Below are positions 1 through 64,000 of a DNA stretch of 64,000 nt, in pieces. The number at the start of each line of letters is the position of its first letter. Position 1 is the first letter of the stretch. The notes under the pieces are model-generated. The model had not been told where the DNA came from. It worked only from the letters and a program-made list of their open reading frames with translations, and searched no databases. This DNA comes from Planoprotostelium fungivorum (lineage: Eukaryota; Evosea; Variosea; Cavosteliida; Cavosteliaceae), in assembly GCA_003024175.1 (NCBI GenBank), contig MDYQ01000448.1, positions 1-64,000 of the forward strand, given 5' to 3'. The translations under genes were made by a program, and so were the position numbers.

Positions 1-3000
1 AGGATGATGGTGGAACGGGGGGCCGTTTTGTTCGTCTCTTCACCGCCTAAGATGAGTCTGGTGGGGGGTCAGAAATTTCGAGGAAAAAGGAAGAGTACTT
101 GGTCAGACGGTCCTCGACGTGGAGGTCAGACAATCCACTGGTCTTACTGCCGTGACCTGTGCCTGGATTAGAAAATGGGATTCTGAAGGCAGGCGTCGAT
201 TCGAGCGAGAATGCCAAACGATTGGCAGCTCACCCAACAAGACGAAACCCAAAGCGAGACCGGCCGACAGAGAGAGTGATTCTCTGTTCTCCGGAACATC
301 CCTCGGTTTCCGCGAAATTTCACCCAATAACACCTCCGTGACACGTCTGTGACAGCTGCCCATGTACAACAGACCGATACCCACCAGAGAAGCTTCCAAC
401 ACGATCGACGTCACGTCTAAATCTGTCGACAGGGGAGGCTGTAAGGCCGGGATGTGCACCGACATCAGCTTCGAAGTGTTGGGGTCCATCGTGCCCCTAA
501 AATTAGCCGACATGCCTAATAATAGCCCCACGTTCGTCAGCGTGTGGCTGGCCGTCAGATACAGAAACTGCTTCGTGCGTGCCAGGGAGGACAAATGTCC
601 CCTCAATCCCAAGGCCAACAAGACACCTGCGATGACGTCATCACACGTCATCATCTACAACGACACCCACCGGCGTGGGAGCACTGTACGGTGTCTGCAG
701 GTGTGTCTTTGTTTAGCTCCGGGCGATTGTAGGCGATCCAAGTGGATGAGACCCTCTCTGATCCGTCTCCGAGTCTTAAACCGGAAGCTACGCCGTTGTG
801 GAAATCAGCCCAGGCGGACATTTCGGCGGGAACGGCATTTTGGTCCGGGCTGACGACCAATTTCGCCCCCGCCTGGCGCGCGTTGTATATCATGGGGGGG
901 ATGACGATCGTATCGGTGGGTAAGGGTAACGGACTCGTTGCCATGGTGAACATACCCCTTCCCACGCACAGTGACATGGTTCGCTGGATGACGTCAGATA
1001 TAGAGGTGGGTGGTTGTACCTTGGCTATTTGTAGGATTTTCTCTTGTTGGAATGTCATGATGTCGTGGTCGGCCATGCCAGAGGGTAACGGATCGTGGAA
1101 CACGATGACGCGTGATGACGTCAGAATGCGTGAGACCTGGTGGGGTGAGGAGCTGGAATCTGCGAGTGCGAATCACCTCTTTGAGTCGCAGGTCGCGACC
1201 GAATCGCAGATCGCAGGAGGGGAGGTGGAAGTCGGTGCCGTCCTTTTGTTTTTCTTCTCTTTCTGTGAATTTTCTCAGAAATTTCTGACGTGGGTGTGAC
1301 CTCACCCCCAATGAGTGATTCTTCATCGAAATCTCGGTGACTCTTCGTAGATCGGGGTAAGACGTCCAAACGATCGATCAAGACGTAACCTTCCGCAGGC
1401 CACTTTGCCGAAGGTGGTGGGCATTCCTACGATGACGTCATCAACCGTCTACAACTAGTCAATCCACCTGTCGGCAGGCGCGAAACACTTCCAGTAGTGG
1501 AAGACTGACACCGAACGGCAGCTGCTCGACGTTGGACAAGGTGAAGTGTTCGGATACCATGGAGAGGACCACGGAATCTCGTGGAGAATTACTGGTACCC
1601 GTGATGGGCCCTGGGAGCAGCGCGGTGGAGCAGGTGAGCCACGTTCTGATTTGTACCGTGCGTTGGTATCGGACATCCGGCCTACCGCACAAGATGCTGT
1701 AGAATCGGCAGATCTTTCTGATTCTACAACGAGTCAGGGGAGGAGGGGGAGAGGATTCACCTCTCGCAGGGGAAGACGCGGGAGTGGGACAGCATGGGAA
1801 AGTCGTGGAAATTCGATTCCAGAGTGTTTCTCAGCCAGTTGTAGATGCTGGGGGGATGGATGCTATATTTAGATTCGACGGTGCCCACCAGTGAAGAAAA
1901 CTCGGGGAAATCTCTCAGATAGTAATCGGTGTACAAAGGACAACCGCAGCGTACGGATAACTGCGTTCGTTCAACTCAATTTTTCCGTATCTTTCCGGTT
2001 CACCCGAACCAAAAATCTCGCCAGTGGAAGTAGATCATGTTTACACAAGGTATCCAATTTGTAATCTTCATAGACCATGTGAATCGAACACAAAGAGATG
2101 ACTCTCTCCTGATCACTCAACGAGATCTCAGTACCTATCATCACGTCAGTCGACGTGGAATTCTCTTCGAAAATTCACCGTTACGCTTCGGTACATTCAT
2201 TTCGATTCCGTTCGTCTTCTGTAATCTCTGCATTTTCTCCCAAGCGGTCTCATCTACAACGAGCATCAGCCTCATCCTCCCCATCTCCTCACTCTTGATG
2301 GGCTCTGCTTCCAAAAATAGATCGCAGAAGCTAGACCACCCTTCTAGATCCCCTCGTTCATCTTGGCACCAAGCTAAAAATAGCTTCGCTACCAGTGGAA
2401 AGGGTAAGCTGGAGGCCAAGGCACGCATACCATCAGACACAGGAGCGTAGACGGGCAACAGATCGAGTTGTAAACGGACAACTTCCATCTTTCCCTCTGG
2501 CGTCATACACACCGCATTGAAACGGTTGTACACCGCATCCCTTATCTCCACGACTTCTCCCTGAGTTTTCCGTCAATTTTCACTCATCATCTCCTCTCAC
2601 CCTCTCTCTAAAGGTAGTTGTGGCTATGCAGTGTGTTCCTACGTACAAGTTTAAATTCCCACTCTTATCCAATAAGAGGAGATCGTTCAATATGTGGCCG
2701 TGGACGTTGGGCCTGCGTGTGGAGCAGAGAGGTACGGCACAGGCTACATTGGGTAATATGTAATCTACAACGCGCTCTTCCGCCGTCCTCTCGCACAGTT
2801 TCGCCACGTCATAAGCGTGAATCTTATCACTGTGAATAGTTAGATCACGTGACTTCGATCGCGATACATCATCCATTCGTGTGAAAAACTCACCCGCTGT
2901 GGATGCAGATGAAAGTGGAGTCGAACTCGTCGCTGACCGTGAAAATGTGGCCGGAGCTTCCAGAGAGGGAGTGTGGTTCTTCGTATAACATCTCCAGGAA

Positions 3001-11424: not shown

Positions 11425-11505
11425 CAGATTCAGTATGATTAAAAGTATGGTTATTGGAGTGGATGAGAAGGATGAGCGGATGTGATTACAGGACATGTTA
11501 CGTGT

Positions 11506-13089: not shown

Positions 13090-13274
13090 GCGTGATGGTG
13101 ATTGATGCTTACGTAACGGAAAAATGGGAACGAAAAGGGTGATTTTATTCATATTTATTCTATATAACATGTATTTGTAACTCGAGGGATATATCTTGTC
13201 ATTTGTGGTAGACAAGTACTGCGACAGTGTCGCCAGCAAACCATCTCTCAACCGTAGACTCGTTCACCTTCTCA

Positions 13275-16453: not shown

Positions 16454-19400
16454 ATGCCCAAAGTCAGTCGAGGTAATGCGATGCATCTGATGATGGCAAA
16501 ATGGTCCTGTCACTCACTGATACCCCATAGAGAGGGGAAAGCTCTCCAGGTCTGAGTCGGTCAGTAAGTTAGACAATAATGGACAAGATTCTGAAGATGC
16601 TCTGAGTCCCAGAAGCGTGAAGCATGTGGCTGGCTCTCTCAAGATCAAAGACAAACAGACGGTCGGCGATTATGTGAGAATATTATCCGCATCGTGATGC
16701 ATCCATCTGTATATCTCTTACAATCGCTGATTCAGTATGCCAGATCTTGATCGATGTCATTGGTAAGGGAGGTTATGGTACCGTATACAAAGGTCTCCAT
16801 CGATTCAAAGGCAATTTTGTAGCGATTAAGAAGATCTTGTTGAGCCGAATCGCCGTGACAGACGACACCGTGGACACATTCATGGTGATCTATCTCCCTT
16901 TCCGACCCAAGCATCACATTTCATAGTCATTAGAACGCGTCCCTCTCTTCTCTCCACACATCATCATCACCATACAATTCATGTACCTCCATCATCTTCT
17001 CGTTCCCACTCGACTCACACCCCATAGATGGAAATCAAGTTACTGCAACGTCTGAAACATTTAAATATCGTCAAATACATTGATCACATCCTTCAGAAGC
17101 GCTCCCTCTACATCGCCATGGAGTGAGTCATCATATCGACACGAAATCTCATCGATTTTTCAGATTCATGGAGATCGGTTCTTTAGAACACATGGTACGT
17201 CGACACGGCGTGTTTCCAGAGGAGCTAGTCAGTGTCTACACGAAACAAGTTTTAGATGGTTTAAATTACCTTCACACGGAAGGTGTCGTGCACAGAGACA
17301 TCAAAGCCGCGAACGTGAGATCTCATCATCAACTCCATCGTCTTCGCTTTCATCATCGTCATCGTGATGATGTGAACGGAACGTGGCTGATTGTAGATGG
17401 AAGATCTTGGTATCATCAGACGGACACATCAAATTGGCCGATTTCGGTGTTGCGACTCAATTGTGTGACCCTCGTAATGCCGGAGATTTCGGCGGAACTC
17501 CGCACTGGAGTGAGTGAACATCTATCCTCATGTCTTAACGACACGTCGACTCATGATCACGACATCATGATGACGTCATCACAGTGGCACCCGAAGTCAT
17601 CAACATGCAGCCGGTGACGACTGCGTGTGACATATGGAGTTTGGGTTGTACGGTCATCGAGTTGTTGACGGGGAGACCACCCTACTGGGATCTACCTATC
17701 GCTGCCGCTCTCTACTCGTGAGTCATTTGGTCATCAGATGGAGACATGATGATGAGACGTGTGTGAAAAAACTGAACGTCTGTAGAATTGTTACAGAGGA
17801 TCGACCGCCGCTGCCTGAGGGAATCTCTGCGGTGAGAATTTTGTATCATTTATTTGATAACGTTCATTTATTCATTCTCCTCTGTGCTTATTCAGTATTT
17901 CCTGTATCGTTGTAGATTGACTCCTCCATGTAGAGTTTGAAAGATTTTTTGGTTCGGTGTCTGCATAAGAACGAACTATTGAGGGTAGACGCTCTCACCT
18001 TATTCTCCCACCCCTGGATCAGAAATCAAGAGAATACGGTGCGTTGTAGATCGAAATACAGTCGACTCAAGATCGCACAGCCACAAGAATTACCCGAAGT
18101 CCACGATCAATTATCCGTGTACAAGGAAAAACTTCAGGAAATCGGAAGAAAAGTCGAACTGACCACCCAAGTCGCCAGCCCGGGTAACCGCTACATGAAC
18201 GCTACCCCCAAGCCAGCCCGTGAGTTCTCCTCGAAATTTCACTGTATGACGTGTGATGACGTCATCAGGTCGGTCGCCCGTACATCCCATGGTATCACCC
18301 TCCCTGACTCCCCCCTCGTCTAGATCGGGCACCTTGAATGACATCAAAAACAATTCACTGAACAGCCGGAGAAATTCTCGCGGTGGAACATTTGTCATGC
18401 CGAAATCTCTCGCAAAATTCGAGGAAGACAACGAGGCCTTCGAGGAAGGATTCGGAGGTGATGGCGCGTTGTAGATGGATGTTGACGGGGTTAGATGCGA
18501 AGGGGGAGAGTTTGTCGTTGAGTGACATGAGTGGAAAGTTGAGAATACAAAAGGAAAATGCTCTGTGGGACGAAGAGATACAAGAATCATTCGACGGTGG
18601 TATTTTCATTTCATTTCATCTGACTCGTTGTAGATGGAGCGGAGATATCCATGTTGATGGACGAGAAGTACAGAGACCAACTACAACGAGACATCACTGG
18701 AATGATCGAAGTGTTGAACACGGACAGAGACCCAAAGACAGTCATCACCACTTGTGATCAACTGGTGGGGAAATTTCATCTGAATGTGACTCATCACCAT
18801 AGCGACACACACTGGGCAAGAACCCTACGGCCAAGATACAGCTCATCATACGTAACGGAGTGAGATTTCGAAGAAAATTCGGAGCGGCTGACGTCATGCA
18901 GATCGTTCCGCTGATGGAACAACTGTCGTGCCAGAAGGATGAAGAGGCCATTTTCCATATACTTCGGTTGATCAATTCAATCATAGACGATGCGAACGTC
19001 TTAGACACCATGTGAGTCTTCATCTGATGTCACGCGTCGATGATCGTGAGATGATGATCATGAGAGACGATGATCTTGAAGATGATGAAGGTGAATGACG
19101 CGTTGTAGATGTCTGTTGGGTGGGATACCACTCATCACAAATTACTCCACCGCGAATTTCAACAAGTCCGTTCGAACCCAAGTCGCCCGGTTCGTCTCGA
19201 ATATTTGTGCCTCCTCCTCCCTCACCGTCCACATGTTTGTCTCCTGCCGGTAACTCTCAACCCACGAAATTTCACTGACATTCCAAGGGGTTTCGCCGTA
19301 TTGACATCTCTCCTCGAGACAGACTACAACGAATTCAAAGACATGATACAGTACACCCTCGAATCCACCCTACGCATCTTCCGTCTGCAGGTATACGTCC

Positions 19401-21002
19401 GTCCCAAATATTCGTGCCTCACCCCTCTCCCAGACTCACACCCCCAAGAATGCCTTCTGTCATCTCTTCTCGAAATCAGGTTTCATCGATCGATTGGCAT
19501 TCTGTATTCAAGGAATTCCATCTCTGTTCACTCTACACTGTCACTCTGAAGACTTGGACTATCTGTTAAAGTTGAGCAGTGCGCTCTTCATCTTCTCTCA
19601 GGCAGATTCTCCCCTAGTCAAATCAGACATGGGAAAATCTTCCGTTTTAACCGGTGAGACATTTCGATGTGAATCGTGAGGGTGACCGCCTCAGCCATCA
19701 ACGCTCTGCTCAAATTTCTGCGGCCGAGGGGGAAGGAGAGAAAAACGGGCGAATTATTCGACATGGAGAATATGTCGACGTCGACACTCACACACCCTCT
19801 GTACAACCGTGGGCCCCTCAGGGACGCTCTGACACGGCTGCTGAAGACGGTGAAAAACTTGACGCTGGATCGTACGGTGAAGGAGAACATGGAGAAGGCA
19901 GGTGTAATCGAGACACTCATACTCTACCTCGAACTCCACGAGGAACACATCGACCGAGTCCAGGTGATCGACCCTCTACAACGTTGTAGACGCCGACATT
20001 TGACAGGAAATCCACAATCAGACGCTCAACGCCGTGTTCAACATCTGTCAATTGAATCGGAGGGGGCAAGATATCGTGGTGCAGAATGGAGGTGTCCATC
20101 CACTCATACGCATCGTTCAAGATAGAGGTCCGATGAAGGCACTCGCCGTATCGATACTGTCCAATCTCGTCCACACATCGGCACCGTCGAGGGTGGGAGA
20201 GGCCGGAGTGGTTCGTTGTAGATTGACGTTACCTCTCAGCAAAAAATGTGGGAGGGGAGGTGTCTGGAGATGTTCTTGGAGTTACTGAAGGAGGGGAACT
20301 ATTACGTCGACGCTATGGAGGCGATATCAGCCTGGGCTTCTTATGATATCATGAAAGTAGAGCAGCAACTGATGGAAGGAAAAAATGTCGACATTTTGAT
20401 CCGAATGTTCACGGAACAGGTGACTCGTTGTAGATGATCAAATCTGACGCGTTGTAGACGGGATCGCCGGAGTTCGGTAAAATGCTTCAGCCGCTGTTCA
20501 ATTTGACTACCCTCTCTGTGAATCTGAATCGACTGCTGGCCTCTCCCGAGAGGATGCTGATGTCAGACATCACAAAGTTGATTGGCACCACAACGGATCC
20601 GTTTTCGAGGGTGATCTCATCCTCTCGATGATGATCGTGCACGATCATCAGAGACAGGAGCTCATGCTTTACAGGTTCGACTTTTAAAGATACTGAATGT
20701 GTTGTACTCTAGCTCAGATCGTAAGAAGGAATTATTAGACAAGTATCAACTGTTGGACACAGTCAGAACCGTCGCTGAGCAAGACGACCGAGTCATCGTG
20801 TCCAACATCACAGACGTTCTGCTTCAAAACTTTGCTGGCCTGCGAATATAGTCGTTTTGTATTCTCTCGTCACCTTGGTGTCGTGTAGCAAGTGTATGCG
20901 CTGGAGGCAGAGAAGGTCAAGAACACAAGGAAGAGACCGTACAAGTTGGAAGGAAAGACACAGTTGAACAGGGACTTCAAGAAGACGAGAAGAACGCAAT
21001 AG
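16454..21002 (+). CDS. SepA/Cdc7/MAP3K-epsilon-like STE kinase with C-terminal armadillo repeats
   Basis: Protein kinase resembling the septation kinases Cdc7/SepH (fungi), SepA (Dictyostelium) and MAP3K-epsilon (plants). The start is MPKVSR, followed by a Ser-rich leader. The kinase domain (about 16730-18040) carries [55 protein letters not shown] and [19 protein letters not shown], so all catalytic motifs are intact. A linker at about 18050-18650 is followed by armadillo-type helical repeats (about 18640-20980) such as [21 protein letters not shown] and [14 protein letters not shown]. The tail is basic ([18 protein letters not shown]...KKTRRTQ) and ends at 21002. About twenty introns; several end in TGACTCGTTGTAG or TGACGCGTTGTAG. 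In its family it acts upstream of cytokinesis (septation initiation) signalling; that role here is inferred. Confidence 0.88.
18621..18633 (+). other. Stereotyped intron 3' end TGACTCGTTGTAG (one of eight exact copies)
   Basis: The exact 13-mer occurs on the + strand at 18621, 20421, 24504, 37635, 47063, 54100, 58175 and 58375. At seven of these it ends exactly at the intron 3' AG. At 20421 it sits just inside the intron start, and that intron ends in the variant TGACGCGTTGTAG. The TGAC could be the branch-site core about ten nt from the AG. Confidence 0.85.
19975..19990. repeat. 16-bp perfect palindrome TCTACAACGTTGTAGA
   Basis: Head-to-head copies of the common octamer form a perfect inverted repeat inside an intron of the SepA-like kinase. 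Near-palindromic versions lie at about 24127-24142, 48990-49005 and 59187-59202. Confidence 0.9.
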
Positions 21003-45802: not shown

Positions 45803-48800
45803 ATGGCAAACTCACGTCCACGATACTATTATCTACGGAGAATATCGATCACTATCGTTTCTGTCTTGGGATTGCTGGCTCTATTGGCTGGGACCGTACA
45901 AGTAACAACATGGGGATTAGAGCCGAACTACTGTGCGATGACTTTCATGTTTCCCAATTTCGTTCTCGTTTCAGAGGTGCACGAGTCCAGAAGGAGGGGG
46001 ATCTGTGATAAGTATGGGCTCTATCTGTATCTCGAGGGCTACGGTTGGCGAAATCCAGAGGAGAAACTGAGAGAGTTGACTGGCGTGCCCGTCTTATTCA
46101 TACCTGGAAATGCAGGGAGTCACCGACAAGTTCGATCTCTGGGTGCAGAATCACACAACATCTACACTCAATTTGCATCCAGTGTGAGAGATCTCTTTCA
46201 TTCGTCGTCGATTAGAATCATTCGACCTTACGTCATGCAGTTTCCAAATCATCTCGACGTCTTCGCCGTAGATTTCGAAGAAGAACTGTCGGCCCTCTCA
46301 GGTGACCTCTTGAAACAACACTCTTGGTACGTCAATCACTGCGTGGCAAGGATATTAGAACTCTACACACAGAATACCGCCCTCTCTCTACAGTGAGACG
46401 TCGTTCGACATCACATGTCCATCGCTGATCACGATGAAGACACAGACCCCAGTCTGTCATCCTCGTGGGACATTCCATGGGTGGTCTGGTGGCTCGATCC
46501 GTCTACAACATGGAAAATTACGTGGAAAATTCTGTGTCGACCATTCTGTCCCTCAGTACACCACAGAATAACCCGGTAGTGCTGGCGTCCAGGAGCACCT
46601 TCTCCTTCTACGATTCGATCAATCGTCACTGGTCGAAATACTTGTCACCCGAGCACATCAAAGGGTGATCATCTTGTTCGATCGTGTCGATCATCCGCAT
46701 CGTACACCCAGATGATCTCCATCATCGTCATCGCACGTCATCGCGATCACCGACTCATCTCGACAGAGGTCCTCTCAGCCAAGTCACCATCGTTTCCATA
46801 GGAGGTGGCTTCAGAGACATCTTAGTGAGATCGAGTCTGTCAGACTTAGAGACCATCGGTACGTACAATTCCGTTCGTTGATCTGACACGATCAGGTGTT
46901 CCAACGTCCCACGGGCTGACGACACTGTCTACATCGATTCCTGATGTCTGGAGACAGACCGATCACACCTGCATGGTCTGGTGCAATCAGGTCGTCAAAA
47001 AGGTACGTGTTCGAATCCCTCTCCCGGCATACTTTTATACCGATGATTTTGAGTGAATGGGATGACTCGTTGTAGATCGTCTGGACCCTCTTGGATGTCG
47101 TGGATAAGAATACGAGACAAGCTACATTACCGCGTGAAGACAGGATGACTGTCTTCCGCAATCACCTCATCAGGTATGATTTCACCCCGTTTTCACCCCT
47201 GACCGTACGTACAGTACGCTTCCCGCCTACTTGGGCTTGAACCATGAGACGGCCAGACAATCTGTACCACTCGGATCGAAATCAACGGCCACGAACGTTC
47301 TGAAGAAGAAACCAATGAGAGAAATATTGATCTCTCTGAGAAGACAGAAAGTCACAGAGACCTTCCTATTTGATGTGCCCCAGAGGTTGTATTCGAACGT
47401 GAATCTCTCGCTGACTGGAGACAGTGGTGAAGACACGTTTCAGATGTTTGCGGCCGTTGTAGAGCAGTACCACACTCTCAAAGTTTTCGTCGTTCTTTCC
47501 GGTACATCACAGGTGATCGTTTGAACGTCTACAACGATCACGTGACGTCTATTTTCAGCTTCAAGTCATCGAACCTGTCAGAATAGCCTCATTCACCCAC
47601 GGTGTCTCGAATTTCATCGTTCAGATCAACCGAGATGTTTTGTCCAAGTGGGTCGTAGGTTGAATATTTTCATTCTGATGAAACAGTTGCTCTCACGTAG
47701 TGATCAAGATCGAGTCGGGGCAGAACACGGTGTACGATCTGGACGTTTTTTTGGCGGGAAAGTTTGTCGACGCAAGAAATCATCAATCTCTGTCCGTCAG
47801 TTTATTTGGAGGTGAGAGTTTGGGTTATGATATCATGTACGACATCGACCACGGTGAAGGATTGATCGGGTAATTAGGACCCGAATATTTTCAATTACCC
47901 GAAGGATCTCTCTTCAGTCTCTTTTCTTTCCCCCAACACAGCAAAATACTACCCATAACGGTCATTTCAAGATTCAAAATTTAAATTCTGAATATCATAT
48001 CAGGTCAACGTGGAGGCCAGTCCATCTACATCTGAAGTCGAACACACACTTTTATCTTATCAATACACTTCATCTATGAAAGAAGAGATCTTCAGGCCAG
48101 ATACAAAGTGAGACGATTTAACGTTTTTTACGTGTGAGATTGAAAGATCTCAGATTCGATCTGAGATTCCATTCGTTACCCAGGTTACCGTCGGCATCGA
48201 ATCAAGACGTACAGTTGATCTTGTGGACGAATCCGTCGCGGCGATACGAGGTGATCACGTCATGATATCATAACGACAACTTCGAAGTATAAAGATCGCC
48301 ACATCATCGACACGATCATGATGATGATGTGATGATGATGTGATGATGATCGTGTGCAGGTTCGATTTGAAATCCAATTGGTCTCCGTGTTGGGTCAATT
48401 ATTTCATTGGTATGGTGCTTCTGTCCTGGCCTTATCTTTCGTCGTATTCTTCATGCACATGGCCGGACAGATGTTACATTTTTCACGGAAGAGTGGGTGG
48501 AATTTCTGTGATATTTCTGACAGTTTTCAGTCAAATTTCCCTCTCTGTTGGATGTCATCCTCACTCAATACGTAACTCCAAATCTCCTCGTACTCTTGAG
48601 CCTCATATTCCTACATCTACTACACGGTGAAGATTTATTCTCTACTATCTACAATAGAGTATATGATTCAACATTATGCGTTAAAATATTATAATATAAC
48701 ACCATAGAATGATAATATTACACACGAAGAAAATTCGAAAGTCTTGTTCAAAATAACACAAAATAACGATGAAAGGGGTTCTACCTGAATTCATCACACA

Positions 48801-49734: not shown

Positions 49735-49949
49735 AAGAATAAAAGAAGATGATGAAACTACAGGCTTCGATTGATAGAGGAGTGATAGGTGATGGTGATG
49801 ATGATCGGGTTGCATGCTGAAGGATAAGGTTGTCACGTGTCAAGCGAGAGTGAGTGGAAAGAAAAATTACGAAATAGACGTGTCAACCGACTTGCGGGTC
49901 GCAGAAACAAAAAGTCACACTCGCCCTATAAATCAAAAAGACAAGCATC

Positions 49950-52900
49950 ATGGATCTCTTAGATGCTATCGTCAGCGCTGTATCTGAGGTGATGAGAGAG
50001 GACGGAATGGATGGAATGATTCGAATCAGGTGATGCTCGTCTTCGAAGATGCACAGAGGAACGTGAGCACCGTTGTTGCGATGCCTCTGGCAAACTTCGG
50101 TCTGCTCGTTCAAGAGATTGGCCGCATGGTTTCTGTCCAGGTGCGATCGGATCACGAGCCGATGGAAATGAACTGACGCCTACAGGCGGGGCAATCGAAT
50201 CGAATCGAAGACCCTCTGATGAGAGCCGCCATGGAACAAGTCAACGAGGAGTTGAGAGCTGTAAGTCTGACACTGACGTGATAATGTGGATTGATGGAAT
50301 GCAGGAAACGATGGCATTAGAGAATACTGTAAAAACAAGCGCCCCCGTCGTTCGAGATAGCTATCACATTCCAAGGTGCGTCTCGTGATTAAGAGCCGTG
50401 ACATGACTCAACGACAGACACGCATACAAACCTCTCCACGATCACCTAAAGAACATTATCATCGGAATGATCAAACAGACGCAGATGGTCGACCAGTTTA
50501 ATGTCGATCTGATGATGAAGATCGTCAAGATCGTATTGGACCTCTACAATCGTCTCAAAGTAAGATTCGATATTCTCCATGTGAATCCAACTGAACGGAA
50601 CGAAAGGTTGCCAAAGTCGAACAACTCGATGTCATCATTGCAGATCTCAACAACCGACACGAGACATTCAAGGTCTTCATGAACCACAGACTCAACGAAG
50701 TATCCAACTACGAGATGAAAGAGAGGATGGGTGATCATCATCACATCTTGAATCATCATCATCTGATGTGATGTCGCAGCGAAGGGAATCTCTTTCTTCG
50801 AAGCAGCAAGACACGTCGTGAAAGACATCTGCCTGAACGCAGCCATGGGAAGTGAAGAAGGAAAAGACAGAAAGGAAGACTTCTTCGGTGAACTGATTCA
50901 GGTAGGTGTCTTAACATCATCATCATGATGATCATCACATGTCTCACGCGTCATCGCAGGCCGCTCAAGACATTCTGTTCGGTATCAAAGAGTCCGCTCG
51001 AATCGTGAAAGAGTTCTCCCTCTTATTCGAATTACCTCCCGCCCCTGAAGGGTGATCTACAACGCTCCAACCCCCCCTCACCTCTACCACAGCGAAGCCC
51101 ACGTTGCCATGGCATTGTCCCTCTTAAAGTCTTGCCTTGTCATGGGCGACAAGGAAGGAGCATTCGACGAGGTTCTGAGACAGATGCAACTACAACTCGC
51201 CAACGGCAGGGTCCTGGCCGGAAAATTGACCGACCAGAAGCAGAAGGCGATATTAGAGAGAAATCTCGAGGAATTAGAGAGAGTGATGGGTTCGCTAACG
51301 GTTGCCATGAAACGTTTGGAGCAGAATCCTGGAGACATCCTCCTCATCGATGAGATCGAAAAGTTGATCGACGAAGCTTCTCTCATCAACGATCGCATCG
51401 AGGTGAATTCATCATATCCATCGCGAATCATCCCATCATCAACGTCAACGACATCGAATCGATTTACCTCTCGATGTGACTCACATCACCATCAGGCCAT
51501 GGAGAAGACAGATCGAGCCATGGCAATCAACGCTCTGGAAATCAAGAGTCTCTTACATCAGATGTCCGTGGCTGCACAGAAGGCCGATCTCTCTTCCCTC
51601 GACACCATCACGGCCAAACTCATCGCAAAGAGAGCAGAGCAGATGGAAATCATGGCCAAACTCGCAGCCTCTTCTAAATCGATGGATGCCTCGTCTATCA
51701 ATCGATCGGCAGAGAGGATGGAATCGAGCATAGAAGCTGCGATGTCTTCCGCTCGTTACCTGGCCGCTGCCGCCGGTGATTACGAGAGATTGAGGCGGGC
51801 GATGGAAGATGAAGCGAGAGCGAGGGAGGGTGCTGATGCATCGAATCGAGCAGTCATCGAGGCCCTGCTGAGGGAGAATCGTATCGTCATCGGAGAGAAA
51901 TATGACAATCTACAACGAGCCATCGCGGAAGGAGGTGATGGACGAGATCGCATCGCGATGTGTGACGATAGATAGATGCCAAAGAGATCAAATCAGCTGG
52001 AATCCAAGTCAAGGACGCTCTCTATCGTCAGGCCCAGCTGGGAACGTGAGTCATCTCATTCTTTCTCTCTCTTAGTTCGATCAGATCTCTCAAGCACGTG
52101 CTGCCCTCAGACCAATGGAAGGTACAAGTCGGATCGGCTGTGTCAGATCTGACTCGTTCGCTGAACGAGCTGGACGACGTCGCTCTACAACTCGACACGC
52201 AGAAATTGAATCAACTCAATGCGTTGATGGATCGTATCACGGCGAGCAAATTGGTGTGACATCCATCGTAGATTCACATCGTGATTTCACATCGTGATTT
52301 CACATCAGTTCCTGCACAAACCGGAGACCTCATCGTTGACCGCAGAAGACGACGTGAAGCAGGCCGCCGCTCGATTGATTTCGGCGCATCGCAAAGGTCA
52401 TCCGGCCGACATCAACGATGCCGAGAGAGATCTGATGCAGGCCGTGAGAGCACAGATCGATGCCGCGAAGAAGAACATCATTTTTTTCCCCGATTCAAAA
52501 GACGAATTGATATCTGCCATGTTGGCCTTGGGAGAGACCATGAAACACTTGCATGACAAAGGTGATGAGATTTCGGTGGAAAATCTGAGAATTGTATAGA
52601 TGGAACATTCGAAGAGAGGGTTGCCAAGGTGACCGGTGCTAGCGGAGAATTGAACGATCTCCTTCTCATGGACGCTCTGCAGTCCAATCACAAGAAATTA
52701 TCCGAATTATCCGAAACGCTGCGATCTACACCCGATGGTGAGCGGACGAAACATGTGAAAAACACTGAAATTGTCCTGACATCTGTCAGATCTACAAAAG
52801 TGTACCGATCTGACGGTAGAGATCCAAGCTCTCAGCGAGAGACAAACGGATCTGTTGTGTACGTTAGGAGATAGAAGGGAGGACCCACGTTTGATCAGAG

Positions 52901-55900
52901 CCTCGGAGGTCATCCGCCAAGCTGCAGACGACCTCAAGAGTGAGACGAGAGGCTATTTTCAGCTTAACTCATTTTGCGTCAGATCACAGCTTCGAGATGC
53001 AGGAGAACCCTTCCAAGCGCTCGGATTGCGTGGAAGACACGGACAAAATTGTCGGAGCTTCGGGAGAAGTGTTGAACGACATGATCAGCCAATATTGGAA
53101 CGCCTTATTACGCCACACCGAGAGAATGAGACAGGCCACCTTGTCAGACAATGATACAGAGATGAAGTCAGCTTCGAAACAAGCGGCTCACGCTGCACAG
53201 TGAGTCAAAATCTCCACGAGATTTCACCTTATTCTCTCAGAAAATTATCGCAATTGGCCGCTGTCGCCGCGTCACAGCTCAAGGACGAGGAATTGAAGAG
53301 ATCTGCCCTGCTGATGAAATCTCATGGAAAATCCCTGAACGAGACTGTGTTACCCAGGGGTGATCAGCAGAGACAGAAGACATCCGATCTCATCGATTCA
53401 TCTCGATCTACATCTGATCAGATCTTCAGCAAATTGGCAAAGAACGATCACGTATGTCTCTACACATCACGTCACATCACATTACATCACATCACATCAT
53501 GAAATAATATGGATGATGTGATATTGTATCAGATGAGCTGATGTAGACGACAGAAGGGTTTGATCGAAGCAGATAAGAAGATGATTGCTCACGACCAAGT
53601 GTTCTCAGATACCATGGCAGCCATGAGAGCAGCAGCCGATCGAAAAGAGATGGACAAGATGACAGCTTCGGCCAGAAATCTCGTCGGAATTTCGAAGCAG
53701 TATCCCAACATCGCTCGGGAGATCGATCTACAACGCGCCGGCAACCAGCCCGTCTCCACGGTGATCATTCGTCATGAAATTTCCACGAAATTCCGATCGA
53801 ACCCCCTACAGGCATCGAAAGAAGATTCTGTTCCCGCCTTAATTCGTGCCCTCAAATCAGTCATGGTCAATCCTAATGACATCGAAGCGAAGAGATCTCT
53901 AGAGCAAGCCGTACGAGGTAACGTCCATCTACAACGCCGTATTCAAATGGAACAGACGCGACGTCCGTCCATCAGAAGGCAACGCGAGACATGATCGAGG
54001 AGCAAATTAGAGATAACGAATCGAACATCGAGAAATCGATGAACGAAGTAGAAGAAGCTGCCGCCAACGGAGGTGATCGAAAAGGCGGGAAAATAGAATT
54101 GACTCGTTGTAGAGCAATCTCGATTGGACCAAGCCATCGCTCAGAATTATTCCGATGTCGCCCTTCACTTGGCCCTCGGAGAGTGAGCGTGTCATGACAT
54201 CATCGTCAAGATGTCACGACATAAATCTGACGATATCCTACAGGTTATTGACGAGTGTCTTGCAGAAGGAGAAGGAGAGAGAACAGATACGTGTCGCCTG
54301 CAAACATTTAGAAGAGAAGAGAATAGAAGCCGCTCTACGAGCTCACCAGATGCTGGAGAAACCGAACGACAGCAACGAGAGATCTCTGACAGTTGCTGGT
54401 CAGGCATTGAAGGAGGCCGCAGGCCGAGTCAATGCGAGCTACCGATTCGTCAAGGTGAAAATTGTTTAGACGTTCGTCTACAACGAGTCACAATGAAACA
54501 GGATGTCGAGAGACCGGAAGAGGATTTCATCTCGAATCACAGGGAGATTTCATCTTACGTACAGAAGGAAGACCTTGCCGATGTGAGATGCAGTGTCGTT
54601 GAGATATCTCACATAAGACAGGCGAGAGACAACGTATTGGACGCTGCCAGAGATCAGTTGCTGCTTCTGAATGGACTACCCATCAAGATAGACGATCATA
54701 TCGTCGACGATCTACAACGAGCCATCGACGACCTCGACAGAGAAGCCAGTGAGTCCATGCGGCGCCACAATGAATTGAGACGTTTCACAGCGAGAGAAAA
54801 TCTCGAGAAAGTTCTGGCGGCCGACGCTGCACTGGTAGATGCGATCATCCTTCACCGAATGGAGAAGATGCACAAGAAGGTGATGACGTCATATGACGTG
54901 GCAGTCGAACTGAGCGTTGTAGATCGATCGCATCGACCAATTGGGACAGACGAATAGTTGGGGTGATGACGCAGATTTCATCTTGAAATCGGGAGAGGAG
55001 CAGTGTGTCTTGGCGGCCAAGTTGAGCGTGGCAGAAGATTTGTCCCTGCAGAGAGATCACTTGCAGAATCAAGTCGATGGATCACAGATGTCAGTCATGA
55101 TCGTCGATGGTGAGTCATGCATCCACGTTCATCATCATCATCATCACGATCAGCCATCACGATCATCCATCATCGCGAGTGATTCATTCATTTATCAGGA
55201 CCTGGAACCGAATTAGAGAAAGAAGCTACCAACAGCCTCAAAGAAATCGTCGAGGCCAGCAAGAGCCTCCTCGAGACTGCTTTCAGGAAACACAGAAACG
55301 AGCCTGAACCGATGCCATCCATCGACAAGAGCAGAGAAGCCATCGAGAGAGGTCTGTCCGTACGTAACGCAAAATCTTCTTCCAACAACGCCAAGGGTGA
55401 GATTTTATCGTGATATTCAATTGAGAGCGTTGTAGATGCGTTAGAGAAGATGATTATCGCTGCGAGAGAGCAAGTGAGACACGCACAAGAGCAGAGAGAT
55501 GAGAGATTGAGCGAAGACATCCATCAGCTGATGGAAGCTATTTCTGAAGCTGAGGCTGCGCTCGCCAGTGGCAGCGGTGGGATAGAGTTGAAGAGGGAGA
55601 GACTGATGGAACGTACAGAAGAGAAGATGAGAGAGAAGATGGGACTGATGGAAGAGGCGAGCGATCGATTGGTGGCAGCCATGCTGTCGAGTGACATGAG
55701 AGATAACGCGAGGGAAATGGAAGAGAAGAGGAAGGAATTGGAAGAGAAGCTACACAAAGGAGGTATGTGTGATTCCACTTCATCATCTCATGATCACATC
55801 ACGATCATCATCGCGATCACATCATCTGATGTCGAATAGACAAGAGCACCGAGATGGCCGCAGATGCTTTAGCCAAGGGAGCTCAGAAGCAATCTCTCCT

Positions 55901-58900
55901 CGCTCAATCGTTACACGATCACTTGAAGTCCTCTCCCTCCCACGTTTCGAAGGACAAGATCTTCGACAGATTGACAGATGCTATCTCAGATCTAGAACAA
56001 TACGCAATCTTGTCTTCCCAAGCCAAGGCCGCAGTGCAGAATCCAACGCAGGAGAACAAGGAGAAGGCGGAAAACTCGGCGAAATCTCTCGTAGATGCCG
56101 CACACCGCGCCGCAAGTGCCGCGGACAGCGATCTACAACGAATCATTCAATCTCAGGCGGAATTGGAGGCTGCCGCGGACGCTTTCCATTCGGCGAACGA
56201 TTCCGACAGTCTACAACGCCTGACGGGTGCCGTAGATCGTTACCTCGACAACTACAACGACCCTGATACCAAAGAACTCCGTGAAATTTCAAAGAAACTG
56301 ATGGACCTACCCCACAACGCCAAGGGAGGAAGAGAAGGAGGAGAAGTTGTGGCCATGATTCTAAAGGAAGCATCGAAAGAATTGGCGGGAGAGAAATTGA
56401 AGGAGGAAATGAGAGACAATGTGGAGAAGATGAGAAAGAAGAACGTAGAGATCGATGATGCCATCAAGAGAAGAGGTGAGCGATCGTCATCGCGATGACG
56501 ATGCATCATGCATCATGATCATGAGGCTGACGTGCGACAGATGTTGGACAAGCGAAGGCATCTACGAACGCACAGAACAGACTGGTCGACAGACAGTCCG
56601 AACTCGGAAGAAAATTAGCCGATCTCCACCGCAACGAGAAGCCCGTCTACAACGGTCCCGACGCTACACTATCCGAATTATCCGATCGCTTCCGGCAATT
56701 GAAGGAGAGGAGGGCAAACTTGTTGGACGCCATCGACCGATTAGAAGACAAGAAGTCGAACCACTCCCAACACGTGGACAGATGTCTTAAGAACCCTTCA
56801 GCTTCTCATCGAGATGACGAGTCACCGCTGGATCTCATCGTGGCCGCGGCGGCCGTGCCGATGTCACTCAGCGAACCTGAAGATACGATCTACCAGACTG
56901 GGCTCGTTGTAGAGAGACAGGAGGATGATATCGGTAGGGGAGGAAGAGATGACGTCGATCGATTGTTGGAGAACGCATTGCAGCAGGCGAATTTGGCGGG
57001 AAAACTGCCCAACAAGGAAGAGAACAGCAAGATCAAGAATGAAGCGACCAAATTGAAGCAGAGCGTTGTAGACGCGAGAAAGGCAGCCAATCAAGGACAG
57101 GGTGAGAAATTTCATCTGTCGAGATGAATAACGTCTCGTTTTAGATGGACAGAAGACTGCCGACGCAGTGGAGAAGCTGCTCCAAGTCGTCGCCAAGTCA
57201 CGTGACCTATCAGACGTCACCCTGGAGAAGCAATTGACCAAGAACGCTCGTGACATCAAAGACCAAACAGAGAAGAATCTCAGCCTGGACCCTGCCAACA
57301 GTGAGACAACTCTTACAATGGAGACAAACATTGATCACGATCAGAATCCGACCAAGAGAAGAACGCAAAGAAAGTCAACTCCTTGTGTGACAGACAGGTC
57401 GATCTCGGTAGAAAACTCGCGAGAAATCCAGCGACAACTCGTCCAGCCGTTGTAGACGAAGCCTCCGAGCTCGACAAATTGTTCAAGAAGAGAGCAGCCA
57501 GGAGAGAAGAGGTGAAGGAGTGGATGTGTAGATGATGTCTGAATCGTTGTAGATCGTCAATGCGATTCAAGACATGGAAGATGTCAAGAAGAAGTACGAT
57601 CAAGTGTCGAAGGGAGGTACCAGATCAGATGCTGCGAAGAAGGAAGGAAACAAGCTCTACGAAGCTGCATTGGCTATTCCGTTAGCACAGGTGCATGACG
57701 ATCATCATCATGATCATCATCACGATCATCATGATGATCATCATCATGATCATCATCATGATCATCATCATGATGATCATCATCACGGACACCATCATGG
57801 CCTATCCCATCATGAATTGATAGAATGTACGACTGAATACGACAGGCACCGAGCGGAGGAGAAGAAACCGTGAAGAGAGTAGCAGACCGCATTCGAAAGA
57901 AGATCGAAGAGGACAGAGAGGAAGAGACACAAGGTGATGCGAAGGCGAGGGCCAAGGACATCCAAGACAACAGTCAGAAACTGAAGAACATTGTACAAGA
58001 ATTATCTTCATCACGTGACCCACAGCAGAAGAAGAGGGTGAAATTGGGTGAAATGTCGAGTTGTTTACGAGTTGTAGATCAAAGGGAAGGTGGAGAATCT
58101 GAACCAGGCTTCTGCCGCCGCGGTCACCGCTCTTTCCGGTGAATTTTCGTGTTCATCGTTGTATATGGATCGTCTGACTCGTTGTAGATGGGCAGGAGAA
58201 GGGAGAGAAGGAGAAGAAGATGAACAAATTATCCGACGCCGTCAATCTGCTGGAGGGTTCCATCATCCAGAGCATTGTAGATGAACAGAAACCCACACTG
58301 AAGGAGAGATTGAATCAATTATCCAGGAATTACGAACAAGGAGGTGAGACCACGGGATCGATTCATACCACGATTGACTCGTTGTAGATGGAGTCAAGAG
58401 TAAGAGAGAGGTGGATGCCATCAAGGAAGACGCGGAACAATTGAAGCAGAAGGCCAAGTGAGAATCGCACGTCCCAAACGACATCTGACATCTGCGATCG
58501 CAGGAAGCTGTCCCAATTGACCGACGATCCTTTCATCGCTCAACAGATCAAAGAGGCCATCGATGTCATAGACCGAGAGATGAAGAACGTGGAGGAGCAG
58601 GTAAAGAAGGCCCATGGTAAACCAGTCGGGTCCGAGAACAGTAAGATGAAAGATCGATTAGACAAGATCGCAGATGCCATCGATCGCATCGATATGGATC
58701 ACCATCTCTCTTCGGTGAGAACTCCGAATTTTATTTCCTTTTATTCTTTCTGACGCGTGAAAAAGGATAAAAACAGACCGGAGAAGGAGATCATCTACAA
58801 CGCGTCACGACTGCCCGACGTACTGGCCTCCCCAGAAAATTCTCAGAAAACTTCGGAGCAACACTCTCGTCGACAGAAGGCTATCGCAGATCGCATCGCA

Positions 58901-60639
58901 GAATCATCGCCGAATCCAGCACGCTCGAACGCCATACGTCAAGCTGCCGAGGCTGCTCTCACTTCTTCTCTGAATTCAGAGGGAAGAGAAGACAGACTGA
59001 AGAAGGAATCCGAGTTGGTCAAGGCCGTTGTAGATGAATGCATGGAGAAGAACAACGAACAGATGAACAAGAAGAAGGACGAGGTCATTCAAAATTTGAA
59101 ATCGGGCGGAAGGGCGCCAGAGATCTTGGAAGACTTGGAGGCTTCAGTGCAGAGACAAGCCGAATTGTACAAGTGAGTGGATGTCAATCTACAACGATGT
59201 AGATGACAGAAAAATAGGGAGCTCGCGGAGAGATCAGAAGAGGGAGAGAAGCAAGATCGAATGGAAGAGACGAGCGACGTCCTCTCCATGTTGGCTCCAA
59301 AGATAACGGCCGCACGAAACGGAAAGTGAGTGTTTGAAATTTGAAAGTGAGGACTGATGGCGGGAAGGACTCACGAGGAGAGAGTTGAGAAGGTGAAGAC
59401 TGTCATGCAGCAAGTCAAATACGCACAAGAAGCTTCCAAGAAAGATCCCGTCGACGAGGTGATCATCATGAACATGATCATCACCATCATCACCATCATC
59501 ACCATCATCTTGACACAAACAGGACACTATGACCTTCGACGATTTCTGCTTCGATCTGATGAACCGTAACAATCTGTTGGGCTCTCACCTTCAGAACTTG
59601 TTCCACCTCGATCGCAATCGCACCGACAAACAGGTGACTCACCTCTATACTCACCCAAACATCTCCATCACATCCCATTGACACGCGTTCAGATCGAAAA
59701 AGACAGTGAGAAGGCGAGACAGGAGATGTCCGGCATCGCCACCAGCGCCAAGAAATTAGCCGCAAAAACATCCGACAAGAAACTACAACAGCAACTGAAC
59801 GGTGACGTCATCGTGCATCATCACTCACTTTCACTCACCCTCCACAGAGGCATCTCAGCAGTTGAACGATCTCGCTCCGCAGATTGCCGCAGCGACACGC
59901 GCGGCCATGAAAGATCCATCCAATAGAGAGAAGAGAGAACAGCTGCAAGATCTCACCACAAAGGCAGCCATCGCTAGCACTCTCATCGGTGTTGCCACGG
60001 AGAAGATACAGAGCGATCAATTGATCGGTGAGGGGAGGTGGCGGGTTGTAGATCTGATGATGTCACAGCGAAGGAGCCTCCCAAGCCCCCGGCGAACCTG
60101 GTCGTAGCTGCGGCGGAGGCTGTCGCGGAGGAGGCTGAAGTGGAGGCGATCAACGTGCAACACAAGACTTTCTTGGAGATCATTCGAGCCATGGCAGCAC
60201 AGATCAAGGTGACGGATGATCGATCGCGATCGTGCGATCGATGGCGATGATGAGCTGAACGAGATGTAGATGATGGGAACTGCCAAGAACAAATCTGAAA
60301 TGATCCAATGTGCGAGAACCATCGCCGCCATGATCGATCAGGTGATGATCCTCCCCTTCATCATCACACCTCTGACTCTAAAAGGTAGAGAAAGTGTCGG
60401 CAGAGATGGCCAATGCTTGTCCCGATGCCAGATTCAAGAACCAACTGCTGGGAACGTCCAAAGTTCCAAAGAACTATTCGATTCAGCTCAAGATCATTGC
60501 GGCTGTGAAGAGCGAGACAGGAAACGACGACTACTCTGCAAAGTCACAGCTGACCATCTGTGCTCAAGGACTCTGTGATGCAACCATCAGAACTGCCAGG
60601 GCTGCTGAAGCTGCGGCTCTCAAGACTCCTAAAGCGTAG
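49950..60639 (+). CDS. Giant vinculin/alpha-catenin superfamily protein
   Basis: A single same-strand run of helical exons from MDLLDAIVSAVSE to the TAG at 60639. The N-terminus (about 49950-51050) resembles the vinculin head: AMPLANFGLLVQEIGRMVSV, HDHLKNIIIGMIKQTQMVDQF, KGISFFEAARHVVKDICLNA. The last about 130 residues match the vinculin tail clearly: KNKSEMIQCARTIAAMIDQV, SAEMANACPDARFKNQLLG, NYSIQLKIIAAVKSETG, ARAAEAAALKT (vinculin 'RALIQCAKDIAKASDEVT..ISTQLKILSTVKA..REAEAASIK'). Between them lie about 9 kb of Ala/Glu/Lys/Gln-rich helices separated by dozens of introns of about 45-60 nt. The coding part is probably about 2,500 residues or more, versus about 1,000 for ordinary vinculin. No promoter-like gap or second start divides it. 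Likely an actin-linked adhesion or cortex protein. CTACAACG/CGTTGTAG sites are especially dense here, in exons and introns. Confidence 0.8.
57690..57800 (+). repeat. GATCATCATCACG/ATGATGATCATC satellite-like intron
   Basis: Almost the whole intron is permutations of CATCATCATGATC, CACGATCATC and CATGATGATCATC, rich in GATC palindromes and partly self-complementary. It is the longest such stretch in the window. Confidence 0.85.
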
Positions 60640-60750
60640 GAAGTATAAAGGTTGGCCTTGTGTTGGTAAAAAACAAAAAATCCGTTGTAGCGAGCGAAAT
60701 TCAATTCCGATCCTTTTCCGATCATAACACCGCGACATTGAGATAGAGGG

Positions 60751-61503
60751 ATGGCTTCTGGTAACGTGCCACAGACCGCATTATCAAAGGAGCAGAAATG
60801 GGAGCTCTTTATCAGTGGAGTTCGCTGCATCATGAGTCGATGGACAGCACTCAATCTCGCCATAGATAACTGCTGGGGAGGTATTATTTCCTTCTATATT
60901 ATTTCTCACGTTCTTAGGCGCTTCATCGCGAGAGAAAGCCGATGCGATGTTTGATAATCTCCTCTATGCTTTCGAATGTGAGCTCCTCGATGATTCATTC
61001 ATCATTAATAAGACAAAGCTTCGACTGTACATGCTGATGAGCTCGTCGAATTTTTCGATTATTACCTGTCGAACGATTTTCATGTAGACGCACAAGACGG
61101 TAGCATCGAAGAGGTGACACCTGCGAATAGTGACCTCGTCAGACGACTCACGATAATGATAGGTCTCTCGCACAATCGTTCTCATGTTCAATCGCATCGC
61201 CATAGACGATTTCACAATGGTCAATCAGATCTTGTCTGCCAGAGTACCCAAAGGGACAGAAAACAGTGTCTTTCAGAAGGTGATGACCCCCAATCGAACT
61301 GGACATCATCATTGACACATCAACAGCCACCATCAGACGACGATTCTTCCGATGAAGGAGAAGACGAGGGAGGAGACGAAGGAATGGACGTAGAACAACC
61401 GACGGCCATGAACATCGAGCTAGAGGAAAACACACGACCGATCAAGGAGATCGATGAAGATGGTTTCGAGACAGTCACATCTAGAAAGGGTAGAAAGAAA
61501 TGA
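60751..61503 (+). CDS. TSR2: Pre-rRNA processing protein TSR2
   Basis: Small acidic protein that escorts ribosomal protein eS26 and acts in 20S pre-rRNA processing. MASGNVPQTALSKEQKWELF is followed by GVRCIMSRWTALNLAIDNCWGG (TSR2 'GV...L..WTAL.LAV...WGG'). After an intron (GTATTATTTCC..TTCTTAG) come ASSREKADAMFDNLLYAF, HADELVEFFDYYLSNDFHV and QDGSIEEV, all matching the family helices. The C-terminal half has an acidic Asp/Ser/Glu run (DDDSSDEGEDEGGDEG) and the closing IDEDGFETVTSRKGRKK, equivalent to the conserved 'DGW..V..KK' end. About five introns. Stop at 61501-61503, only 55 nt from the convergent gene's stop. Confidence 0.92.
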
Positions 61504-61558
61504 AGATATTTTCGTCAAATGAAGAGAGGAGAAGAGTAGAATTTAAACAAATTTCGAT

Positions 61559-62036: not shown

Positions 62037-62253
62037 GACTGATGATGTGTCTCTGTTGAGTCCGTTTGTGGGCGGCAGAAATTAATCTTCTTTACGTTCA
62101 TCTACAAACCTCTATCTCAACCCTGGACGACAAGAGCCGCTGCAGCTATCCATGCCAATTCTTTCTATCCACCGGTGTCTACAGGACGGTGTCATATATA
62201 TGTGCCAGAGCTGACCACCGACGCGGAATCAACAAGGAGTCCACTCTGACAAA

Positions 62254-64000
62254 ATGATGACGTCTGGAAAGGCAATCCTGCATGATTTAGGTAACTTGTG
62301 GTTCAGGGGTCACCAAGAGGCTGCATGGAGTCCCTTATGTGGGCCTCTACAACGCACAAACGTCTCGTTCACAGAATCAAAACCAGCTCCCCATCAGCAG
62401 AAGCTCCTGCCATCTCGATGGAAAGCAAGGTAGAATCATGTTGTCAATTTCAAAGTTCGAAGATATTTTTGAACTCGTGCTTGTTTTCCATATCCATTTT
62501 AAGATCGAGTGCAACTCTTTGGAAACTCAATTGAAACGAACAACAGACGATGCGGCATCATAAGACGACTTCTTTGGTCACAGATGCAAGCGAGAAGAAA
62601 CATCATCATTTTGGACATCGGAGGAAGAAATCAACGAATGACGCCAACATACGTGAGTTGATTCAAAAATCCGAGGATTTATGTTACCCACACTTCCATT
62701 GAAGACATCACGTATATCTGATGTCTAAAAGATGCATCAAAAGAGGGACACACAGTGCCTCTTGTCAAGTTTTGGAAAGCGAAAAGAGGTTTCGATCGTA
62801 ACGTAGATGTCATTCCTCCAATCGTCAACGAGACCGTAGAGTGGTTATATAAATACGGTGAGATCTCATCCAACACCCCATCTTCATCACACGTCCGTAC
62901 CTCTATCCATCCATAATGACGTCCATCTGATCTCATTCCAGCGTTGAGGACAGAAGGACTCTTCAGACTCAGCGGTTCCGTTGTCGATGTGAAAAAGTTG
63001 AAGAAGAAATACGACAAAGGTGAGATACCAAGCGAAGGAAGGTGTTGAAGATTCACCAGGTAAGAGTCCGGAGCTGCCATCAGATATGGACCCACACATC
63101 GTCTCCGGCCTTCTCAAACAATTCTTCATCGAACCACCCGAGTCCATTCTGACAGACGAACTCTACGAGGCCTTCTTACAGTCCGTTGGTGCGTCATCGA
63201 TCATGTCGCATGGAACATCATGCTGATGATGTGATGTGTCCGGCTTCAACTGATGAGAAGAGACAGAGATAGAAGACGAACAGGCTAGAACAGATTGTGT
63301 CATCGAAGTCCTGGGACAACTACCGCCCGCCAACAAGGCCATCTTATCTAGACTCTTCCGTCTCCTCTACACGATACAACTCCACTCTGATGAGAACAAG
63401 ATGGTGAAGACGTCTTCCATCTACAACCCGCCAAAGTCTGATTTCAATTCAGACGGCCAGCAATTTGAGTATATGTTTTGCACCCACTCTGGTGAGGAAG
63501 CAACACATGGAGATGCTGAAGGTTCTCTCTAACTCTGAAGTGACGAAATGTCTCGTTCAATTCATCATCGAAAAGTATCATGCCGTCTTCGAGGTGAGAG
63601 AGAATGGAATGTTTATGGGCGATGTATCGATCTACAACCAGCCACAACCCACTCAGAACCGTCCACGAGCTGCCGCCATCGACGGGGTGAGTCGAAGAAA
63701 TTTCATCGATTTTTTCTATTTTCTATTCTCCTTGACTTTTTTCCATTTTTTTCTATTTTCCTCTTTTTCTTCTACTTTTCTCTCTTGTCAACCTTCTCAA
63801 CTCTTTCAGGATAAGAAGATGACAGAATTCAAGAAGGCCCTCCTAAAGGGAACCGTCAGGCTGGCCCGCAACAAGATGAAAGAACTCGGACAATACGAAG
63901 ACATACAAGACATATCCAAAGAGACATCCATGCAAGAAGATCAGATCGGCATGGAAGAGCTGCAGTCGGCTCATGAGAAGAGACCCGTGCAAGAGATCGC
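62254..64000 (+). CDS. RhoGAP-domain protein, C-terminus beyond right edge
   Basis: GTPase-activating protein for Rho-family small GTPases. The RhoGAP domain (about 62755-63600) reads NVDVIPPIVNETVEWLYKY, then after an intron ALRTEGLFRLSGSVVDVKKLKKKYD, with the arginine finger in GLFRLSG. SDMDPHIVSGLLKQFFIEPPE corresponds to the conserved 'D.H.VA.LLK.FLRELPEPL' helix. Next come ILTDELYEAF, VIEVLGQLPPANKAILSRLFRLL, and ENKMVKTSS followed by AV/TLW after an intron. Downstream is a Lys-rich helical segment (MTEFKKALLKGTVRLARNK), and the frame is still open at the window end. The start is uncertain: the ATG at 62254 (MMTSGKAILHDL) is a guess, and exons before 62700 (KRLHGVPYVGLYNAQ, SEKKHHHFGHRRKKS) are placed only approximately. 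Confidence 0.78.

Follow-up and report, generated by a model that had tools for sequence, protein, structure and literature searches.

Genome-wide signature words are known from bacteria, and one of them, HIP1, occurs in coding as well as non-coding DNA and on both strands. The yeast proteins Reb1, Rap1 and Abf1 are abundant and recognize sharp sites located mainly in promoters, the motif upstream of the Piwi-interacting RNA (piRNA) genes of C. elegans is present in about 10^4 copies, partly intronic and on either strand, and introners are whole introns copied as units. An excerpt of one report (PMC4390886) presents HIP1 (GCGATCGC) of cyanobacteria as a short word hugely over-represented genome-wide and possibly linked to orphan methyltransferases, and an excerpt of another (PMC7725773) presents the PATCs of C. 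elegans as non-coding DNA able to prevent transgene silencing. Here, a 9-mer, TCTACAACG (complement CGTTGTAGA), is described from Planoprotostelium fungivorum (Variosea), where it was followed in a stretch of 64,000 nucleotides (assembly GCA_003024175.1, contig MDYQ01000448.1, positions 1 to 64,000 of the forward strand; hereafter the window), in samples of other contigs and in the complete assembly. Among the titles and abstract beginnings examined from the open-access literature, neither this word nor an equally sharp or long-gene-interior eukaryotic word was found.

Like HIP1, the word is in genome-wide excess on both strands (12,082 copies versus 562 of a reversed-word control), yet it is found in a eukaryote, has an asymmetric core where HIP1 is an octameric palindrome (although a 14-bp palindrome is formed at 750 places), and is concentrated in gene interiors, with none in the short genes examined and one domain nearly empty. 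Thus, of the likeness to HIP1 drawn in a preliminary description of the window, the genome-wide, DNA-level word stands, while an even signature does not, as the copies are uneven and concentrated in the interiors of long genes. The sharpness is shared with the sites of yeast general regulatory factors, but the word keeps away from gene starts and is less frequent in intergenic DNA than in introns. Copy number, partly intronic location and occurrence on either strand are shared with the piRNA upstream motif, but no downstream signature was found within 150 bp and exonic copies are present. As with introners, a short sequence is repeated in thousands of introns, but only about 9-17 bp are shared and the whole introns are not alike. 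The PATCs may be a functional analogue; however, they are periodic A/T runs and not a word, with no clear 10-bp period of WW (A or T) dinucleotides around 157 sites of the present word, and they are non-coding, whereas this word is also exonic.

Across the window (1..64000, both strands), 55 copies of TCTACAACG/CGTTGTAGA (24 and 31 per strand) and 60 copies of the 8-mer CTACAACG/CGTTGTAG (28 and 32) were counted, versus 1.9 and 3.6 expected under a third-order Markov model, and the two have the top z-score among window 9-mers and 8-mers, respectively. The preliminary figure of roughly 50 copies was thus slightly low, and the further T/A that it placed beside most copies is present in the 55 of 60 that match TCTACAACG. 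In the assembly of 36,859,091 bases, the 12,082 copies are evenly split between the strands (6,040 and 6,042) and represent a ~21-fold excess over the reversed word; the abundance is therefore neither near Markov expectation nor confined to the window. The window is nevertheless richer than average (0.86 versus 0.33 copies per kb), and density is uneven: positions 1-200000 of a second contig (C1:1-200000) hold 0.345 per kb, and ten 2-kb samples from ten contigs hold 0, 0, 1, 0, 1, 1, 0, 0, 3 and 0 copies. A prokaryotic origin was rejected, as the 17-mer CGATCTACAACGAGTCA is present in just two stretches of the prokaryote collection.

The word is sharply bounded. In the first 284 kb sampled, the exact word occurs 130 times (5.3 expected), and single-base variants at its positions 1-8 sum to 102 (90 expected); the last G can be replaced by T (21 observed, ~4.7 expected) or C (11 observed, ~4.0 expected). 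Allowing one mismatch raises the genome-wide count to 31,584, versus 14,989 for the control. The motif refined on the window and C1 carries 18.8 bits (173 hits versus 7 in simulated sequence, at a threshold chosen to keep false hits to 5% or less), with an asymmetric core and the consensus TCCA-TCTACAACG-AG.CA. Beyond positions -3..+13 of the word, none of the columns within 150 bp differs from background at p<1e-4 in 105 non-palindromic sites. Moreover, the 14-bp palindrome CTACAACGTTGTAG found at 750 places genome-wide has a control count of 0, and the class CTACANNNNTGTAG, with any four central bases, is found 2,042 times versus 169. In the window, the full palindrome sits centrally in a predicted intron of 43 nt (19976..19989), and the near-palindrome CTACAACGATGTAG, a member of that class, lies in predicted introns at 24133..24146 and 59189..59202. 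Inverted repeats with arms of at least 7 are also in excess in 698 short introns (71 versus ~20 in shuffles), and 36 of them persist when the two main words are removed, so that other palindromes share the excess. RNA hairpins were rejected as an explanation, as they leave the exonic single copies unexplained. The identity of CTACAACG with part of the 10-23 DNAzyme core, which carries G where the genome word has T, is regarded as coincidence.

Gene structures were predicted by a gene-finding hidden Markov model (HMM) trained on the window plus C1:1-200000 (264 kb modelled without RNA evidence), the final 3' splice-site model being trained without word-bearing introns. A 30-kb hold-out (C2:70001-100000), fetched after the pattern had been seen, brought the modelled total to 294 kb. 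The predicted proteins are long and plausible; one is a kinase that matches PKA across 266 residues. Predicted introns in the window and C1 are very short (546 of 890 are 36-50 nt, most commonly 37-44 nt) and mostly start with GTGAG and end with CAG or TAG; some short introns of different genes share phrases of 16-20 nt such as ATGACGTGTGATGACGTCAT, and no 16-mer is present in more than six introns.

Over these 264 kb, the 8-mer was found 82 times in introns (2.8 expected; 55.7 kb), 45 times in exons (5.8 expected) and 7 times between genes (1.3 expected; 47.4 kb). The intron and exon locations and both orientations previously reported by eye are thus confirmed on gene models, and the enrichment does not appear to be of the promoter type, intergenic DNA being far poorer than introns. 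With the hold-out included, 34 sites lie at predicted acceptors, 74 elsewhere in introns and 51 in exons; without acceptors and palindromes, the two orientations are used about equally (53 versus 43; 23 versus 26 in introns alone). In exons, synonymous codons were shuffled within genes (40 shuffles, 86 genes), and CTACAACG was observed 29 times versus a mean of 7.1 (maximum 12) and CGTTGTAG 16 times versus 0.7 (maximum 2). The word is thus favoured in exons on both strands regardless of the protein encoded, and a codon or amino-acid origin was rejected. Some of these copies could be mis-modelled introns. Orientation-neutral outside splice sites and in excess of synonymous shuffles in exons, the word acts as a signal at the level of DNA.

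Three reading frames illustrate the exonic copies. In the PKA-like kinase, the copy at 30592..30600 (minus strand) is read as ...GTT GTA GAT (Val-Val-Asp) and lies in a conserved stretch where LLVVD aligns to LLQVD of PKA without a gap; this copy thus arose by substitution and not by insertion. Others encode Asp-Leu-Gln-Arg (GAT CTA CAA CGA; 54711..54719, plus strand) and Ile-Tyr-Asn-Glu (ATC TAC AAC GAG; 26735..26743, minus strand). The exonic copy at 42481, in a sedolisin-like protein, falls in a poorly aligned part.

The position of sites within genes is far from uniform. In a pooled set over the 294 kb (palindromes counted once, genes with a coding sequence below 300 nt excluded; 143 sites in 99 genes), the 46 genes shorter than 1.5 kb (45,246 bp) harbour no site, and all 143 fall in the 53 genes of at least 1.5 kb (193,285 bp), 34 of which carry at least one. 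By rank, the word is carried by 1 of 195 first and second introns, 10 of 229 introns of rank 3-5, 27 of 233 of rank 6-10 and 55 of 326 beyond. Sites become denser away from the nearest gene end, climbing from 0.19 to 3.88 per kb in introns and from 0 to 0.69 per kb in exons. When sites were placed randomly within their own gene and their own exon or intron class, 49.2 +/- 5.1 were expected within 750 bp of a gene end (minimum 32 in 2000 permutations), versus 27 observed. In all 34 site-bearing genes, the first site is at least 396 bp past the predicted start and the last at least 180 bp before the stop, and among 3,299 8-mers tested, CTACAACG/CGTTGTAG is the most interior-biased (112 versus 30). 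The pooled counts include four genes cut by stretch ends; the 95 others have 137 sites, 3 of them no more than 750 bp from the start.

This pattern was first seen in the window and C1, where introns of rank 1-5 seldom hold the word and later ones do so frequently, with density increasing away from gene ends. The hold-out behaved in the same way: with palindromes counted once, 6 sites were found in 13.5 kb near gene ends (<750 bp) versus 20 in 9.2 kb of interior (p = 2e-4), and its six genes below 1.5 kb have no copy, while its five longer ones have 32 (palindromes counted twice). The window offers two dense examples on the plus strand. The predicted 11.7-kb gene W_g18 (49814..61503), coiled-coil-like by eye, has 23 copies in introns and exons and in both orientations, the most of any modelled window gene; the predicted gene W_g5 (16454..21002) has 12, with 7 of its 21 introns carrying one.

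Sharpness, freedom of orientation, palindrome formation and DNA-level maintenance in long genes together point to the site of a putative DNA-binding protein. The motif is compact (18.8 bits), is used in either orientation and has a dimer form, and of the preliminary suggestions that of a binding site thus survives, modified to an asymmetric motif with a palindromic form. On balance, we lean towards reading the word as the target of a sequence-specific DNA-binding protein working within long transcription units; a specific role of this putative binder in chromatin or elongation is at most half as likely as the binding-site reading. The monomer site would be (C)(C/G)A-TCTACAACG-(A/C)-G-(C/T)-C-A and the dimer site (AT)CTACAACGTTGTAG(AT). 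That existing splice sites and codons are put to use suggests an origin of the sites by point mutation, followed by retention: partial matches such as an existing TAG|A splice site or Tyr-Asn and Val-Val-Asp codons would be converted, and the new sites would be retained by selection. The protein, once bound, might support transcription or chromatin along the length of long genes, for instance by holding the gene body open or by suppressing internal initiation or silencing. Its places of action would mostly lie more than ~0.75 kb downstream of the start codon and more than ~0.5 kb upstream of the stop codon, sites near gene starts being either selected against or not needed.

A bolder version, which we put forward only tentatively, is an orientation-free code of gene interiors, composed of ~12,000 words of ~10 bp in introns, splice junctions and synonymous codons and read, together with the companion words ATGACGTCAT and GAAATTTC, by a putative protein that may sustain long transcription units or shield them from silencing. 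If functional, the word would provide a simple sequence handle on what long transcription units need compared with short ones, and would reveal a demand at the DNA level strong enough to influence both synonymous codon choice and the sequence of splice sites.

A number of observations weigh against a binding site required within long genes. The avoidance of ends is lopsided, with 5 of the 143 pooled sites within 750 bp of the start and 22 within 750 bp of the stop; genes of 2.5 kb or more show a recovered density already 500-750 bp before the stop, and in the nine that measure 5 kb or more the 5' end is weakly depleted, the first kb still holding 5 sites. No site was found in 19 of the 53 genes of at least 1.5 kb, and density does not follow length in the 38 genes measuring 2.2 kb or more (rho 0.21, p 0.20). 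Thus, the clear exclusion is from gene starts and short genes, and a rule that longer genes are denser is not supported. Furthermore, 14 genes of at least 2.2 kb in C1:1-115000 carry merely 6 sites in 56.6 kb, versus 141 sites in 108.7 kb for the 24 such genes elsewhere, so that long genes can do without the word. At the other extreme, about 20 sites in a single gene (23 and 21 in two cases) far exceed the needs of a classical transcription factor. Some copies are intergenic (11 in 54.8 kb, including 4 in the 7.3 kb of the hold-out), and words one base off are modestly in excess genome-wide (19,502 versus 14,427). Finally, the position tests cover 294 kb of 36.9 Mb (<1%), start and stop positions are approximate, coming from HMM models unvalidated by RNA, and the hold-out was chosen from a contig already seen to be site-rich.

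The main rival is a word akin to HIP1 or to uptake sequences that owes its spread to a drive at the DNA level (biased conversion, repair or a modification enzyme) and not to usefulness for individual genes, and that is kept from gene starts, short genes and one domain that resist it. Such words are resembled in sharpness, orientation neutrality, exonic synonymous choice and thousands of copies. The domain in question, C1:1-115000, is CpG-poor, and over the 38 genes of at least 2.2 kb, with the word masked, word density tracks CpG content (rho 0.71), as might be expected of a process linked to recombination or repair. The exonic observed-to-expected (o/e) CpG ratio gives rho 0.72, and in 10-kb bins CpG follows the word with rho 0.76. 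In the same genes, density is also correlated with median intron length (rho 0.47, p 0.003) and with the CGN share of Arg codons (rho 0.38, p 0.02), and not significantly with GC content at third codon positions; regional GpC composition was rejected, being unrelated to the word in 10-kb bins (rho -0.18). However, outside the CpG-poor domain the link to CpG is weak (rho 0.42, p 0.04; 24 genes), and a drive without benefit does not readily produce the uneven distribution, the absence from the 46 genes below 1.5 kb or the rise within genes away from their ends. We therefore hold a drive of this kind to be unlikely, though of some weight. Inside the word-poor domain, G000:C1:40000-80000 is both gene-poor and CpG-poor (CpG o/e 0.61-0.69).

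CpG also bears on a tie to gene-body DNA methylation, which in plants and insects likewise avoids gene starts. The word ends in CpG and is distributed over the interiors of long genes, other excess words contain CpG as well, and two loci match the DNA C5-methylase family; PF00145 is matched in pieces at G000:C72:12097-14301 and G000:C271:17948-18965, both probably split by introns. Long genes with few copies are low in CpG and slightly enriched in TpG/CpA (rho -0.43, p 0.008; 38 genes), as if methylated there. The direction is opposite to that of a methylated mark, however, since the word-rich genes are the CpG-rich ones; 10-kb bins show no TpG/CpA trend (rho -0.14), and decay by CpG deamination was rejected for the word-poor domain, where its products TCTACAACA and TCTACAATG are not in excess (4 and 1 in 115 kb). 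Overall, a tie to gene-body methylation, perhaps with the word marking or protecting unmethylated long genes, appears improbable.

Splicing accounts for a distinct fraction of the copies. With the hold-out included, 34 of 71 gene-sense copies of CGTTGTAG outside exons terminate exactly at a predicted 3' splice site, and in 23 of these 34 a branch-point-like TGAC stands immediately upstream. In the window, TCTACAACG at 1723..1731 (plus strand) is, on the minus gene strand, CGTTGTAG|A at the predicted 3' splice site of a 37-nt intron (1724-1760). The predicted 3' splice sites at 18626..18634 (CTGACTCGTTGTAG|AT; intron 18597-18633), 24509..24517 (intron 24477-24516), 37640..37648 (intron 37610-37647), 47068..47076 (intron 47003-47075), 54105..54113 (intron 54073-54112) and 58380..58388 (intron 58344-58387), all with the word on the minus strand, follow the same pattern. 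The extended form TGACTCGTTGTAG is found 966 times genome-wide (control, 2), so that the word might be the joint branch-point and 3' splice-site sequence (TGACTCGTTGTAG|AT) of very short introns, the other copies being by-products. Yet these 966 represent ~8% of the 12,082 copies, and a sense-only signal at a fixed position is not what is seen, given 34 sites at acceptors versus 74 and 51 elsewhere. Moreover, the opposite orientation is equally common in the rest of the introns, exons carry the word on both strands, the palindrome is frequent, the exon opens with the word's own AT in 27 of 34 cases, and first introns, which also need splice sites, are without it (1 of 195 at rank 1-2). A splicing element as the sole explanation is thus disfavoured, and we regard it as quite improbable.

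No more credible is a role as promoter or marker for small non-coding RNAs made in their thousands within genes, in the manner of the nematode piRNA motif. Copy number, both orientations and intronic location would suit it, but no second conserved column is present within 150 bp on either side, T runs are about as frequent downstream as upstream (65 versus 57), and neither the exonic copies nor the palindrome is easily accounted for. No RNA family was matched in the window by Rfam at the gathering threshold.

An origin as the footprint of a very small mobile element or of a family of introners, which the preliminary description had considered as a small spreading element, would fit the thousands of copies, many of them intronic, the sharp word and its palindromic form, but is very unlikely, as nothing is common to the copies beyond ~17 bp (no conserved column outside -3..+13), the copy in the conserved kinase is free of gaps and inserted bases, the exonic excess follows from synonymous choice, and 34 of 71 non-exonic copies in one orientation re-use the TAG of the intron.

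No shared theme links the proteins of word-rich genes: a Pfam search of 10 of their long exons gave matches for four, namely PMP repeat, protein kinase, RSN1_TM and DUF7553 (below its cut-off).

Several other words are over-represented in the same genome. The palindrome ATGACGTCAT, similar to the cyclic AMP response element (CRE), is found at 1,603 places genome-wide (control, 30), for example at C1:144587-144596 and C1:185330-185339. Introns are enriched in TGACGTCA (70 hits on both strands, 12.6 expected), which tends to share genes with the main word (rho 0.40 per kb), and, in the window and C1, in the palindromes GAAATTTC, which is interior-biased (35 versus 10), and GTACGTAC. The E2F-like GGCGGGAA/TTCCCGCC is over-represented in both exons and introns of the window and C1 (GGCGGGAA, 24 versus 4.2), and in coding sequence TTCCCGCC exceeds synonymous shuffles (11 versus 1.55). 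At G000:C1:174436-175207, 36 copies of AGACCCAC, many of them ~12 nt or multiples thereof apart, lie in one predicted gene, which looks like that of a tandem-repeat protein.

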